Source: a virus. Taken from it: a stretch of 34,358 nt of DNA. Below are positions 9,921 through 21,069 of the stretch, one piece after another (within the stretch, counting starts at the first letter, position 1; the number at the start of each line of letters is the position of its first letter). The position numbers and the translations under genes were made by a program. The notes below the pieces were generated by a model. It saw only the letters and a list, made by a program, of their open reading frames with translations, did not search any database and was not told where the DNA came from. The stretch lies in the IMG/VR virus record IMGVR_UViG_3300030012_001209, positions 1 to 34,358 of that record; one strand, written 5' to 3'.

Positions 9921-9970
9921 TCTAAATTTTGTACAATTTTGAATTGTTCATTTTTTGAACAATTTATGAC
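9921..9970 (+). repeat. Direct repeat copy 1 (iteron-like)
   Basis: This unit has two boxes: TAAATTTTGTACAATTTT at 9923-9940 and TGTTCATTTTTT at 9945-9956, followed by GAACAATTTA. The same arrangement recurs at 10017-10065, with a third, shorter copy at 10098-10123. Repeated units in front of replication genes are typical of initiator or repressor binding sites. Confidence 0.7.
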
Positions 9971-10016
9971 AAAAGACCCTAGCACATTATGCACTAAATG
10001 TCCAAACATTTATGTG

Positions 10017-10065
10017 TATAAATTTTATACAATTTTAAGTGTTCATTTTTTATACAATTTTATTT
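10017..10065 (+). repeat. Direct repeat copy 2 (iteron-like)
   Basis: The unit reads ATAAATTTTATACAATTTTA and then TGTTCATTTTTT (10040-10051) followed by ATACAATTTTA. It matches copy 1 over nearly 48 bases, with a few substitutions and one base less between the two boxes. The start-to-start distance of the TGTTCA boxes is 95 bases. Confidence 0.7.
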
Positions 10066-10097
10066 CATGGGAGTGTGCGAACATAGGGACGTTTCAC

Positions 10098-10123
10098 TGT
10101 TCATTTTTTAGACAATCTTATTA
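10098..10123 (+). repeat. Direct repeat copy 3 (half unit)
   Basis: TGTTCATTTTTT (10098-10109) is followed by AGACAATCTTATTA, matching the second half of copies 1 and 2. It lacks the preceding GTACAATTTT box. It lies 58 bases after the TGTTCA of copy 2. Confidence 0.65.
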
Positions 10124-10432
10124 CAAGTCTACAACTAAAATTATTATCATCTTTATACCCTTATATATAAACATTATCCACGTTTTGATTCGGTGAAAAT
10201 CTAAAATTAAAAAGTGTATAAAAAACGTACAATTGTACAAAATTTGTACAATTTAAAAATCCGTTATTGAGCCGATTAGAGCCTTATATAGGGTATTTCA
10301 ATATCTGATACCCTACATCATTATCAGAATAAAAAGCTTATTTTGGGGTAAATTTGGCGTATATAGTGTTTTGCTTATATAGTTATAAGTTATTGATTTT
10401 AAAGGATATTTTTTTTTGTGATTTTGTAAAAT

Positions 10433-10453
10433 ATTGTATATTTTTTATACAAT
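10433..10453. promoter_or_regulatory. Operator-like inverted repeat ATTGTATA-N5-TATACAAT
   Basis: A perfect 8-base inverted repeat with a five-T spacer lies about 43 bases upstream of the early promoter -35 box. Its half-site is the same TATACAAT that recurs in the upstream direct repeats. The symmetry suggests a dimeric regulator, possibly the HTH protein encoded at 5415-5615 or 16788-17024; the pairing with a regulator is inference. Confidence 0.55.
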
Positions 10454-10495: not shown

Positions 10496-10524
10496 TTGAC
10501 ATTAACGATACGTTCACTTATCAT
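10496..10524 (+). promoter_or_regulatory. Early promoter, sigma70-like
   Basis: TTGACA at 10496-10501, a 17-base spacer and TATCAT at 10519-10524 give a near-consensus host promoter. Transcription would begin near 10531 and read through the structured leader into the early genes from 11079. The sequence around the -10 (TCATTAACAATATAG) resembles that at the second early promoter near 17299, where TTAATATAATGTTAATG occurs. Confidence 0.75.
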
Positions 10525-10530
10525 TAACAA

Positions 10531-10910
10531 TATAGTCAATAACCTGATGACTTTTGACTTAAAGCATATAATTCAGCACAGACGCATAAGGCACTTTATA
10601 TATACGGAGAAGTATCAAAAAAGCGAATAGAGTGAAAGACGACAAATGCAGTCGATTGACCTTATAGGGGAGAAATTGTGCCCTAAGAGAAGCAAGTAAA
10701 GCACGTCCACCATACAGGAAACTATGTAATCGGTTTCGTATTCTAGGTATGTCTAGCTTGTGATATAGACGAGATTTATGAGTAATTTTAGGCAGACGGT
10801 TTGAATGTCTAACGTGGGACTGGATGCTGAAATAATATCGATATTGAGTAGATAACTACTAGCAAGGCAAGTGGCGTATCGATACCATGAAAGCGTTAGA
10901 AGCTAGAAAA
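10531..10910 (+). ncRNA. Candidate structured noncoding leader RNA, about 380 nt
   Basis: No gene fits here, yet the base composition is more balanced than the flanks and short helices are dense. Examples: CGAC/GTCG (10640-10654), TAGGG/CCCTA (10664-10684), CATA/TATG (10711-10725), GTCTA/TAGAC (10751-10770), AGAC/GTCT (10794-10809), AGTAG/CTACT (10848-10860), and long-range CTAGC/GCTAG (10859-10863 with 10902-10906). Alternative pairings ATAAGG/CCTTAT and GGCAC/GTGCC overlap the TAGGG helix and could form pseudoknots. It lies immediately after the promoter, so it should be transcribed. I do not recognise an Rfam family; it may instead be an origin structure. Confidence 0.45.
10834..10885. repeat. 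Pair of TATCGATA palindromes
   Basis: AATATCGATATT (10834-10845) and GTATCGATAC (10876-10885) are perfect palindromes sharing TATCGATA, 42 bases apart, at the 3' end of the structured leader. They could be paired protein-binding sites, such as for an initiator, or kissing/dimerisation elements in the RNA. Confidence 0.5.
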
Positions 10911-10968
10911 AGAAACCTAAAATAAAAATAAATTAATGTAAATTTTCATAATAATATTTATCTTCATA

Positions 10969-11055
10969 TGGACGATGTGCAAGTTTTGTGCATCGTCCCT
11001 GAGTCCGTTCTAGGATGTGCGTCCTAGCCGATGATTGCAAAAGCATGAAACGGAA
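10969..11055 (+). promoter_or_regulatory. Two strong hairpins in the 5' leader of the first early gene
   Basis: The first hairpin pairs GGACGATG with CATCGTCC (10970-10998), with further wobble pairs inside. The second is a branched element: outer CCGTT/AACGG (11005-11052) encloses CTAGGA/TCCTAG (11010-11027) and a small TGC/GCA loop. No T run follows, so they are not typical terminators. They end about 25 bases before the ATG at 11079 and could protect the mRNA 5' region, act as a regulatory leader, or be part of the origin. Confidence 0.5.
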
Positions 11056-11078
11056 ATAATTAATATGAGGTAAATAAT

Positions 11079-11330
11079 ATGAAAAATAATACTATATCAG
11101 AGCAAGTGCTAAATGAGTATCTAGCATTAATCGGAGACTTAGACACTAGACAAGCTAAAGCTATCAAATTTGTTGAAGATGATATTAGGCATTGGTGCGA
11201 ACAAACTGATATATCCAATGCAAAATGGGATGATTGTCTTTACTGGATGACTGGCTTCACTACTAGCGTGTTTGACTGCACCGAGTTTGAGACGATATTT
11301 AACTATGTTGCTGAGGACTATTATTTCTAG
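11079..11330 (+). CDS. First early gene, acidic 83-aa protein, unknown
   Basis: The 83 residues are acidic and helical with several aromatic residues (DDIRHWCEQTDISNAKWDDCLYW, ending FNYVAEDYYF). The ATG has a GAGG ribosome site eight bases upstream, in the same sequence context (AATATGAGGTAA) that precedes ardC. It is the first gene after the early promoter and structured leader, so it is probably expressed immediately on infection. A terminator-like hairpin follows it. Small acidic early proteins often inhibit host enzymes or mimic DNA; here that is only a suggestion. Confidence 0.75.
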   Translation: MKNNTISEQVLNEYLALIGDLDTRQAKAIKFVEDDIRHWCEQTDISNAKWDDCLYWMTGFTTSVFDCTEFETIFNYVAEDYYF

Positions 11331-11367: not shown

Positions 11368-11401
11368 GCATAGCATCTAGCTATGAGGTAGATATTGGAC
11401 T

Positions 11402-11470
11402 TTGAATCATCTAACAGATAGCAAACCAGTGGACACGTTGAATCATCTAACAGTTAGAAACCACTGGACA
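11402..11470 (+). repeat. Tandem 33-34-bp repeat in the ardC leader
   Basis: Two adjacent copies of TTGAATCATCTAACAG followed by (A/T)TAG-AAACCA-TGGACA lie at 11402-11435 and 11438-11470. The copies differ by a one-base indel and two substitutions. One substitution turns CCAGTGG (11426-11432) into CCACTGG (11461-11467), which are exact reverse complements and can form a stem around copy 2. Copy 2 also contains CTAACAGTTAG, an inverted repeat. The region 11331-11520 holds no gene. Confidence 0.7.
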
Positions 11471-11520
11471 AGAACAGGTTATCCGTATCTATTTGAACAA
11501 AACAATATGAGGTAATTATT

Positions 11521-12435
11521 ATGACTAAGAAAATGAAGGAACGCATTGACGGAATAGTGTCAAGTTTAATTGACACTATGAAGCAACACGGTACAAGCTG
11601 GACAAAGTGCTGGAAAGGTGGTATTAGACCAGTAAATCTAGTAACTAAGTCAAGCTATCGTGGTATCAATGTACTTCTGCTAATGTATGCGAGTCTGAAA
11701 CGAGGTTTCACGTCTCAACACTGGGCAAGCATGAAGCAGTGGAACGAAAAGGGATACATGGTAACTGGCAAATCTGAATCTATAATCTTCTTCAAACAGG
11801 TATCAAAAACCAAAACTGACGAGGTTACAGGCGAGGAAATGCAAGGCGATGTTTACTGGGTACATAGATACTACAATGTATTCAACGGAAGCCAAGCTAT
11901 CAACAAAAGCTATCTGTCATGGATAACCAACACATACAGATACACTGATGGCGATGAGAAGGCTAAGACTTCTAAAGTCGTAGACATAGAAGCCGTAGAC
12001 AAATACATCAACAACACTAAGGCAGACATCAGACATGGTGGAGATAAAGCATTTTATACTCCTACAGGCGATTTCATTGGTATGCCGAACAAGTCATCAT
12101 TCATAGATACTGATGACGCAGACGCAACAGGTAATTATTATGGAACTAAGCTACACGAACTTGCTCACTGGACAGGTCATAAGACTAGGCTTGATAGATT
12201 CGGAAAAGCCCCAGCGTCATTCGGAGATGACAAGTATGCATATGAGGAATTGGTAGCAGAGATATCTTCAACTCTATTAAGTATTGAGTTAGGTGTAGAT
12301 GCAGAGCCAAGGGCAGACCATGCAAAGTATCTGAACAACTGGTTGAAGGTGTTAGAAAATGATAGCAAGGTGTTGATAAGTGCTTCAACAAAAGCAACGC
12401 AGGTACTTGATTACCTGAATGAATTGCAAGAGTAA
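11521..12435 (+). CDS. ardC: ArdC-like antirestriction protein with zincin metallopeptidase domain
   Basis: The 304 residues fit the ArdC family. The N-terminal ssDNA-binding domain (about 1-130) has SWTKCWKGGIRPVN, the SYRGINVLLLM motif, an HWASMKQWNEKGYMV region and a SIIFFK strand. The C-terminal domain (about 150-300) has the zinc motif HELAHWTGH (His212, Glu213, His216, His220) and a later Glu in EELVAEI near residue 243. ArdC proteins from plasmids protect incoming DNA from host restriction; here it is encoded early, as expected. A GAGG ribosome site precedes the ATG. Codons for residues 105-118 are duplicated in the next gene. Confidence 0.9.
   Translation: MTKKMKERIDGIVSSLIDTMKQHGTSWTKCWKGGIRPVNLVTKSSYRGINVLLLMYASLKRGFTSQHWASMKQWNEKGYMVTGKSESIIFFKQVSKTKTDEVTGEEMQGDVYWVHRYYNVFNGSQAINKSYLSWITNTYRYTDGDEKAKTSKVVDIEAVDKYINNTKADIRHGGDKAFYTPTGDFIGMPNKSSFIDTDDADATGNYYGTKLHELAHWTGHKTRLDRFGKAPASFGDDKYAYEELVAEISSTLLSIELGVDAEPRADHAKYLNNWLKVLENDSKVLISASTKATQVLDYLNELQE
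11833..11874 (+). repeat. Donor copy of a 42-nt duplication (inside ardC)
   Basis: This segment, encoding EEMQGDVYWVHRYY within ArdC, matches 12620-12661 at 40 of 42 positions and in the same reading frame. The only differences are G/A and T/A at two codons. Confidence 0.85.
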
Positions 12436-19953: not shown

Positions 19954-20513
19954 AGCTAGAACTTATGTCGATTCTTTTCCCCAAGTCTATCGACATGGAG
20001 GGAATAGGAACGAGCAAGTCTCACGATGCTATAACTGCTTCTGATGTGCAGACTATTCTTTCTTATAAAAAATTAAAAGAAGAAGAAGTAAACTTAATAC
20101 TAGCTAAATATTTTGACGATAATTCTGCAAGAACATGGTTGTTAAAATACATGGAGTCTCGCACACTAGAACAGTCAGAAGTATTTATTAGCGAACAAGC
20201 CGTAAATCCTGGTTTTATATTAACCTTTGAAGAACACTCTAGTTTAGCTATGTGCTTGTGGTTAGAAACTCTTTTACATGCTTGCCCTACTTGTAATGGT
20301 GTTGGCATTATAAAGCTGAGTGGTTATATTACAAATGGTATTATTAAATGCGAGGACTGTGTAGCAGGTGTTTATGTTTGGAGTGATAAAGTAAGACAAC
20401 GCATCTCAGGTCTTAACAAAGACAAATACAAAAAAGCAAAGTCCTTTTATAACCAAATCATAGATGGCATTAACGACATAGAAACAAACGCATTAGAAAA
20501 AATACAAAACTAA
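19950..20513 (+). CDS. Lambda Q-like late antiterminator
   Basis: The 187-residue product aligns by eye with lambda Q: both start M-(K/R)-L-E and have F-x-PKS-x-M, followed by SD-V in similar places. Both then have a zinc finger: here Cys112-PT-Cys115-NGVG and Cys134-ED-Cys137 (Q has C-x2-C-x-GxG and C-x2-C-x-GxG with similar spacing). Q binds promoter-proximal DNA and RNA polymerase so that polymerase ignores late terminators. As in lambda, it is the last early gene. Here, unusually, the late genes are on the opposite strand. The assignment is recognition-based. Confidence 0.75.
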   Translation: MKLELMSILFPKSIDMEGIGTSKSHDAITASDVQTILSYKKLKEEEVNLILAKYFDDNSARTWLLKYMESRTLEQSEVFISEQAVNPGFILTFEEHSSLAMCLWLETLLHACPTCNGVGIIKLSGYITNGIIKCEDCVAGVYVWSDKVRQRISGLNKDKYKKAKSFYNQIIDGINDIETNALEKIQN

Positions 20514-21001
20514 TGTGCTAATGTTTTCTCTTTGTCCTTGGCAGGCTTAGAAGATTCTTCTGCGATAGATTTAGATTCAGACTCGAAGTTAAGTTTAGTC
20601 TTAAATCCAGGAACTTTATTTATAAGCTCATTAAGTTCAGCTATTAACTCATCATCAGTTTTATTCTTTGTGTCATCTACAGCTATATTGATATTCTGAG
20701 AACTATAATTACCTAGTTCTAATAACAATTTTGCTGTATTCATTTTGACAGAATCTTGTTCTGAGTTAATCATCAGGTACTTTAATGTATCAATAGCCAA
20801 GCTAGACGTGGATGTTATTTTGGTTTCGTTAATACTTCTAATTTCTTTTTCGTATTTCTTTCTCAACCAATACCCATGCTGACTAGGATTTTTAGTATAC
20901 CCTGCCTTTTTAGCAGATGCAGTTGCATTTGATGCAGTGCTGCCGTCTGTAAAATAGTCTATGAACTTTTGTTCTTTTTCAATATCGCTTCTTCTTGCCA
21001 T
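20510..21001 (-). CDS. terS: Terminase small subunit-like protein
   Basis: ATG 21001 is chosen over an upstream start because GGAGTAAGC lies immediately before it. The 163 residues begin MARRSDIEKEQKFIDYFTDG and show the small-terminase pattern: a helix-turn-helix (STASNATASAKKAGYT) for DNA recognition, then GYWLRKKYEKEIRSI, a helical middle and a charged tail. It would bind packaging-start DNA and load the large subunit. It lies about 11 kb from terL in window coordinates and at the end of the late minus-strand block. Its stop overlaps the antiterminator's stop by three bases. Confidence 0.65.
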   Translation of the reverse strand: MARRSDIEKEQKFIDYFTDGSTASNATASAKKAGYTKNPSQHGYWLRKKYEKEIRSINETKITSTSSLAIDTLKYLMINSEQDSVKMNTAKLLLELGNYSSQNINIAVDDTKNKTDDELIAELNELINKVPGFKTKLNFESESKSIAEESSKPAKDKEKTLAH

Positions 21002-21003
21002 GC

Positions 21004-21069
21004 TTACTCCAATATATATAGATAACAAAGCGATATAATCGCTGTTGCTACCAGTGCTTCTAGTATCAT
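21004..21069 (-). CDS. 21-aa single-span membrane peptide
   Basis: ATG 21069 overlaps the TGA of the preceding gene as ATGA, and its TAA ends inside the ribosome site of terS. The product MILEALVATAIISLCYLYILE is almost entirely one transmembrane helix. Its fit between two genes, overlapping upstream and ending two bases before the terS start, suggests a real coupled mini-gene. It may be a small lysis or membrane-regulating peptide; that is inference. Confidence 0.5.
   Translation of the reverse strand: MILEALVATAIISLCYLYILE

Follow-up and report, generated by a model that had tools for sequence, protein, structure and literature searches.

Structured RNAs and hammerhead ribozymes are already known from phages, the packaging RNA (pRNA) of phages is included in Rfam, and the put RNA of phage HK022 modifies host RNA polymerase to pass terminators. 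Some anti-defence functions of phages have been found among their variable early protein genes. The most abundant transcript of phage ICP1 is a non-coding RNA of about 800 nt (PMC7567579), and in the packaging RNAs of the phi29 type a conserved fold goes with strongly varying sequence (PMC12670572). In phage phiTE, an RNA mimic of a type III antitoxin defeats the ToxIN defence system (PMC3475682). Here, in a window of 34,358 nt (the whole stretch of DNA analysed, most of a 36.9-kb virus record), we describe a locus that very probably encodes a real, undescribed and rapidly exchanged immediate-early phage RNA. A search of the open-licence literature found no description of a hypervariable, cassette-exchanged early RNA locus, and a published description elsewhere is possible.

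The locus resembles the large phage non-coding RNAs GOLLD and ROOL and the ICP1 RNA in that a long phage RNA carries no open reading frame (ORF). GOLLD and ROOL differ in being much larger and recognisable as families, whereas unrelated RNAs of 110–440 nt are swapped here at the head of an early operon. A preliminary description, made from the DNA letters alone, had compared the stretch with large ornate phage RNAs; the long, ORF-less RNA stands as a likeness, but the comparison is loose, as there is no sequence relation and the locus, unlike the recognisable families GOLLD and ROOL, is hypervariable. That description had also recognised no known family, and an Rfam search agrees: at the gathering score, taken as the threshold for membership in GOLLD, ROOL or any other family, no match was found in the window or in 14 related loci, and relaxed E-values brought only sub-threshold, chance-like matches. 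The tandem short pseudoknot repeats of type III (ToxI-like) antitoxins were not found in 10531–10915, which holds two-copy short repeats only and no repeat array. The phiTE mimic (PMC3475682) is a works-like comparison only, of a phage RNA set against a defence, and we claim no membership: that mimic is a repeat RNA, and the window RNA has neither a repeat array nor a known toxin partner.

The window phage is marine and its genome is podovirus-like, the minus strand encoding terminase and portal and the plus strand carrying an early operon; the RNA lies in a 1.3-kb divergent intergenic region between the terminase and the first early gene (Table 1). Among isolates, Pelagibacter phage EXVC032P Baldr is nearest by terminase, with 59% identity (which is not a host assignment), and its gene layout differs from that of the window phage. 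Terminases of Pseudomonas podoviruses are ~50% identical to that of the window, and phage PaP3 is related to these podoviruses. A weak match to the small terminase family phrog_2538 (E 4e-4) occurs at 20510–21028 on the minus strand, far from the large terminase gene.

Table 1. Features of the early region, in window coordinates.
Feature	Position	Strand	Observation
Conserved non-coding block upstream of cassette	10163–10451		80% identity to L003 2501–2788 (291 columns)
Early sigma-70-type promoter, TTGACA-N17-TATCAT	10496–10524	+	11/12 matches; best in stretch
Non-coding RNA body, hypervariable allele	10531–10912	+	Position and design as in covarying RNAs of relatives
5' hairpin AGTCAA/TTGACT	10534–10559	+	Counterparts in relatives; followed by TAAAG at 10560–10564
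Shared motif ACTTAAAGCATATAA, 15 bases	10557–10571	+	Exact in L124 at corresponding place; one mismatch in L003
Shared motif CCCTAAGAGAAGCAA, 15 bases	10681–10695	+	Exact in L124
Long-range helix TCTAGCTT/AAGCTAGA	10752–10759/10900–10907		Contains CTAGC/GCTAG
TATCGATA palindromes	10836–10843; 10877–10884		No other copy in window
13-bp hairpin after RNA body	10970–10998	+	10960–11080 fold z -4.8; relatives' hairpins in same place, by eye
Hammerhead-type element	11004–11054	+	Three stems and most of core; predicted cut 11009/11010
Hammerhead stem III	11004–11008/11050–11054	+	
Hammerhead stem I	11010–11016/11021–11027	+	
Hammerhead stem II	11036–11038/11043–11045	+	
Hammerhead core	11028–11034; 11047–11050	+	CCGATGA; GAAA
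First early gene, 83 aa	11079–11330	+	L084 homologue 43–45% identical
ArdC-type anti-restriction protein	11521–12435	+	ArdcN and metallopeptidase domains; second gene of early operon, downstream of RNA

The position next to the terminase gene raises the idea of a phi29-type packaging RNA, i.e., a structured RNA that forms a ring on the motor for packaging, and a variable sequence with a conserved structure would suit such an RNA as well. However, the phi29-type pRNA covariance model matches neither the window nor the 14 related loci, the terminase belongs to the ordinary large-subunit kind and there is also the weak small-terminase match, and an RNA that must fit a conserved motor would hardly be replaced between near-identical flanks, as these alleles are. 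We regard a packaging role as very improbable.

Several particulars of the preliminary description were reproduced. It reported no gene in the stretch (the longest ORF of the RNA body has 27 codons), a composition more balanced than that of the flanks (GC ~0.39–0.40, vs. 0.14–0.34 upstream and 0.26 just downstream), a promoter directly before the stretch, a long-range helix and two TATCGATA palindromes, where 0.29 copies are expected in the window and 2/100 shuffles reach two. A small protein product was considered and rejected on the shortness of the ORFs and on stop codons that occur near expectation. The locus, its promoter and its non-coding nature are supported by the sequence and by comparison with relatives, and from the promoter we infer a transcription start near 10531. 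An antisense RNA against the phage's own genome was likewise rejected, as the longest complementary match is 12 nt, taken as chance, and no intrinsic terminator was found at the end of the RNA or between it and the first gene.

The density of the helices fared differently. The preliminary description spoke of dense secondary structure, yet 10531–10915 folds at -78.0 kcal/mol on the plus strand, where shuffled sequences average -78.5 (z 0.10), and with z -0.25 on the minus strand, so that its local helices are no denser than chance. Energies no better than those of shuffled sequence had been named there as grounds for abandoning the idea, and such energies are what the single sequence gives; z is also near 0 for most relatives' alleles. 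Because the window RNA folds no better than shuffles, dense structure alone is no evidence, and we rejected single-sequence folding as an argument for a structured RNA. The region immediately downstream (10960–11080) folds far better than chance. Shuffle-like folding and the failure to detect any homologue of the window RNA beyond short motifs would both be expected if there were no functional RNA here and the stretch were an ordinary, fast-evolving intergenic spacer behind a promoter. Evidence bearing on such a spacer comes from related phages.

Relatives were gathered by terminase, early-gene and ArdC searches. Their layout comprises a long intergenic stretch, 110–440 nt of non-coding sequence, a hairpin and then the first early gene, and most have a recognisable sigma-70-type promoter, directed away from the terminase, at the corresponding place. 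The layout is not universal, as many terminase relatives have other gene orders. The non-coding parts form about eight sequence families (the window with L124 and L003; L110; L125 with L129, L138, L147 and L151; L160 with L196; L084; L199; L194; L148), and the promoters precede unrelated RNA alleles at the equivalent position.

Compensatory changes were found in three of these families. Specifically, the consensus of the L125 family comprises 89 pairs; 95.9% of cells are paired, and in 15 pairs both sides have changed. No partner shuffle out of 500 matches these values, displacing the partners by 1–3 columns leaves only 0–3 doubly changed pairs, and column shuffles give a mean of 3.3 doubly compensated pairs (maximum 8). 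One helix of five pairs is CAGTT/AACTG in L125, against CTACT/AGTAG in the other members. There are 10 doubly changed pairs in L124/L003 (shuffled mean 2.3) and 8 in L160/L196 (2.8), and consensus energies against column-shuffled alignments yield z of -6.0 for the L125 family, -3.5 for L124/L003 and -2.4 for L160/L196, more extreme on the sense strand in all three—values to be read in the light of structures predicted on the same alignments and of small families (n = 5, 2 and 2). These patterns indicate that the RNA fold is under selection in the relatives' families. The earlier proposal of a new structured RNA, which its authors would have dropped had homologues lacked covariation, is therefore backed by compensatory changes in positional homologues, by promoters at the relatives' loci and by the lack of an Rfam match, and we consider a real structured non-coding RNA likely.

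For the window allele itself, compensation extends to the 5' hairpin only. Counterparts of this hairpin occur in L124 and L003 (AGTTTG/CAAACT), L110 (AGTCA/TGACT) and L194 (AGTGA/TCACT), with all variable pairs compensated, and the pattern of hairpin plus AAAG, which was defined post hoc, is present in 5/8 families vs. 1.5 in shuffles. The motifs ACTTAAAGCATATAA and CCCTAAGAGAAGCAA stand in identical order in the window and L124, and the 27 exact matches to CCCTAAGAGAAGCAA in viral contigs include, in a locus of the same type, only copies of the L124 allele. L003 carries another copy of the L124-type RNA, which has diverged. When the window RNA was placed in a three-way alignment with L124 and L003, the consensus was poor (8/28 pairs broken), and we therefore claim only the 5' hairpin for the window. 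Its 3' half has no homologue among the relatives gathered. DNA searches for the window allele returned no significant match in isolated phages (one query stopped short of the L148 and L196 alleles) and, with nhmmer, none in related loci beyond the short motifs.

Pairs of closely related phages bring out how the alleles differ. In L084 and L199, the upstream flanks are 87% identical up to a point ~27 nt short of the RNA, the downstream flanks are 93% identical starting at its last base, and no similarity is detectable in between, where the RNAs measure 254 and 147 nt. The same replacement pattern separates L124 from L194 (flanks 88% and 93% identical) and L110 from L124 (92% and 95–97%); the L160 and L196 RNAs have both ends in common and not the middle, and the window and L003 RNAs share only short motifs despite their 80% identical upstream block. 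This block gives a measure of the conservation of ordinary intergenic DNA. As the neighbouring non-coding DNA is 80–88% conserved and the cassette is not, drift explains the cassette poorly. These comparisons support allele replacement alongside the covariation, and they fit an exchange of promoter-plus-RNA units between phages; we hold an exchanged cassette to be highly likely. The occurrence of unrelated RNAs between near-identical neighbours suggests that an RNA tool is swapped among phages. An ordinary spacer, in turn, would account neither for compensated pairs in three families, nor for a promoter retained before unrelated alleles, nor for a cassette that varies within well-kept intergenic DNA, and we think it quite improbable.

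The same comparisons bear on a replication element, e.g., a primer like RNA II of ColE1 or a folded origin. A long divergent intergenic position with conserved non-coding blocks and repeats would suit one, as would the A+G-rich RNA strand. But hypervariability is not expected of an origin that conserved phage proteins must recognise, the conserved block is found upstream of the RNA and not within it, and base counts place the purine bias close to that of the early genes. A replication element therefore seems improbable.

Downstream of the RNA body, the region of strong folding contains two elements (10970–11054) that the preliminary description did not mention. The 13-bp hairpin is not a typical intrinsic terminator, because it lacks a U tract, and we treat it as a candidate 3' end of a released RNA. 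The hammerhead-type element was judged by three stems and the positions C3 U4 G5 A6 N7 G8 A9, G12 A13 A14, A15.1-U16.1 and H17; all are present save U4, which is C, and the 10.1-11.1 pair is U-U. The strict hammerhead criteria of PMC3088659 would reject this element, while active core variants have been described and a natural U-U at 10.1-11.1 cleaves more than other mismatches (PMC3088659). Like known phage hammerheads (e.g., that of the PaP3 intergenic region), it has stems I–III and most of the core; it differs in the C at core position 4 and in being the downstream neighbour of an RNA. A scan of ~1.44 Mb of collected sequence found this one variant in the window and intact cores in many related early regions, and the window form with stem I closed had no hits in 94 Mb of shuffled sequence. 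Rfam gave no hammerhead match in the window, and an exact scan of viral contigs for a 26-base ribozyme pattern found nothing. A ribozyme-like motif is supported, one that could cut the RNA free of the mRNA; whether it cleaves usefully we consider evenly balanced.

Intact-core hammerhead-type motifs were seen at loci L010, L014, L023, L025, L037, L038, L040, L047, L051, L057, L063, L069, L074, L145 and L196. Where tested, most motifs of related phages score below the Rfam gathering score; the L145 copy, for instance, matches the RAGATH-1 hammerhead at 31.9 bits (E 0.0036), below the gathering score of 56.3. In loci fetched by ArdC, the motifs lie mostly within a few hundred bases of the ArdC gene.

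Most relatives have no hammerhead at the equivalent place between the RNA and the first gene, and we therefore treat it as an accessory feature. This absence, together with an RNA that heads the early operon with no terminator before the first gene, favours the main rival to a trans-acting RNA: a cis-acting leader, for instance one that modifies polymerase to pass terminators or controls the stability or translation of the early operon. A place behind the early promoter would suit a put-like antiterminator. Yet a conserved polymerase or gene target gives no reason for wholesale replacement, L084 and L199 keep a 93% identical first gene and leader hairpin region behind unrelated RNAs, and the window phage itself has a ribozyme-type element between RNA and gene. 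We judge a cis-acting leader unlikely.

Our preferred account is that of an exchanged immediate-early non-coding RNA gene, with action in trans on the host as our best guess, and we hold it as a whole tentatively, at somewhat less than an even chance. From a host-type promoter, a folded RNA some 380 nt long would be made as one of the earliest transcripts after infection. Promoter and RNA act as a single cassette, with unrelated RNAs occupying one spot between conserved flanks in related phages, and compensatory change maintains the fold wherever an RNA family is comparable. The transcript would continue through the 13-bp hairpin into the hammerhead-type ribozyme, where self-cleavage would release from the early mRNA an RNA of ~480 nt that carries a 3' hairpin. 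The freed RNA may then act in trans on the host, whether for takeover or counter-defence, as an inhibitor, decoy or mimic, and an arms race would drive the swapping of RNAs.

The transcription, cleavage, trans action and target of this RNA are inferred. Its place at the head of the early operon, the co-movement of promoter and RNA, the compensated folds and the rapid replacement together point to an RNA with a changing target; an ArdC gene second in the same operon counts in favour of our account, as does the precedent of phiTE, whose RNA mimic overcomes a defence system (PMC3475682). Against it count the shuffle-like folding, the confinement of the window's covariation to the 5' hairpin, the 3' half without a homologue, the lack of a hammerhead at the exact place in most relatives and the C for U4. 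A trans-acting, host-directed function taken by itself is a possibility that we put a little short of even.

A wider generalization, in which an RNA-only accessory locus carries unrelated structured early RNAs as promoter-plus-RNA cassettes that are exchanged between phages, act in trans on the defences or machinery of the host and are in some phages cut free by a ribozyme, is rather doubtful. If true, such a locus would be the RNA counterpart of phages' variable early anti-host protein genes, and an RNA-only locus of like behaviour would indicate phage effectors never listed by gene-finding. Sharply bordered and represented by natural pairs of alleles (L084/L199 and L124/L194), the locus lends itself to tests of RNA function.

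Two further observations concern the surrounding DNA. Several palindromic stretches like TTGTACAA and GTTCATTTTTTGTACAA occur at ~9930–10270 in the divergent intergenic region of the window, and in L084 and L199 too; they resemble operators that a phage regulator might bind. In the gap separating ArdC from the first early gene, 11397–11489 reads GGACTTTGAATC ... GTGGAC ... GGTTATCC with an internal near-repeat of ~31 bases, resembles GGACTATGAATCCAGCGTAAAGCGTGGACAGGTTATCC of the post-RNA hairpin in L196 and L003, and is possibly another structured element.
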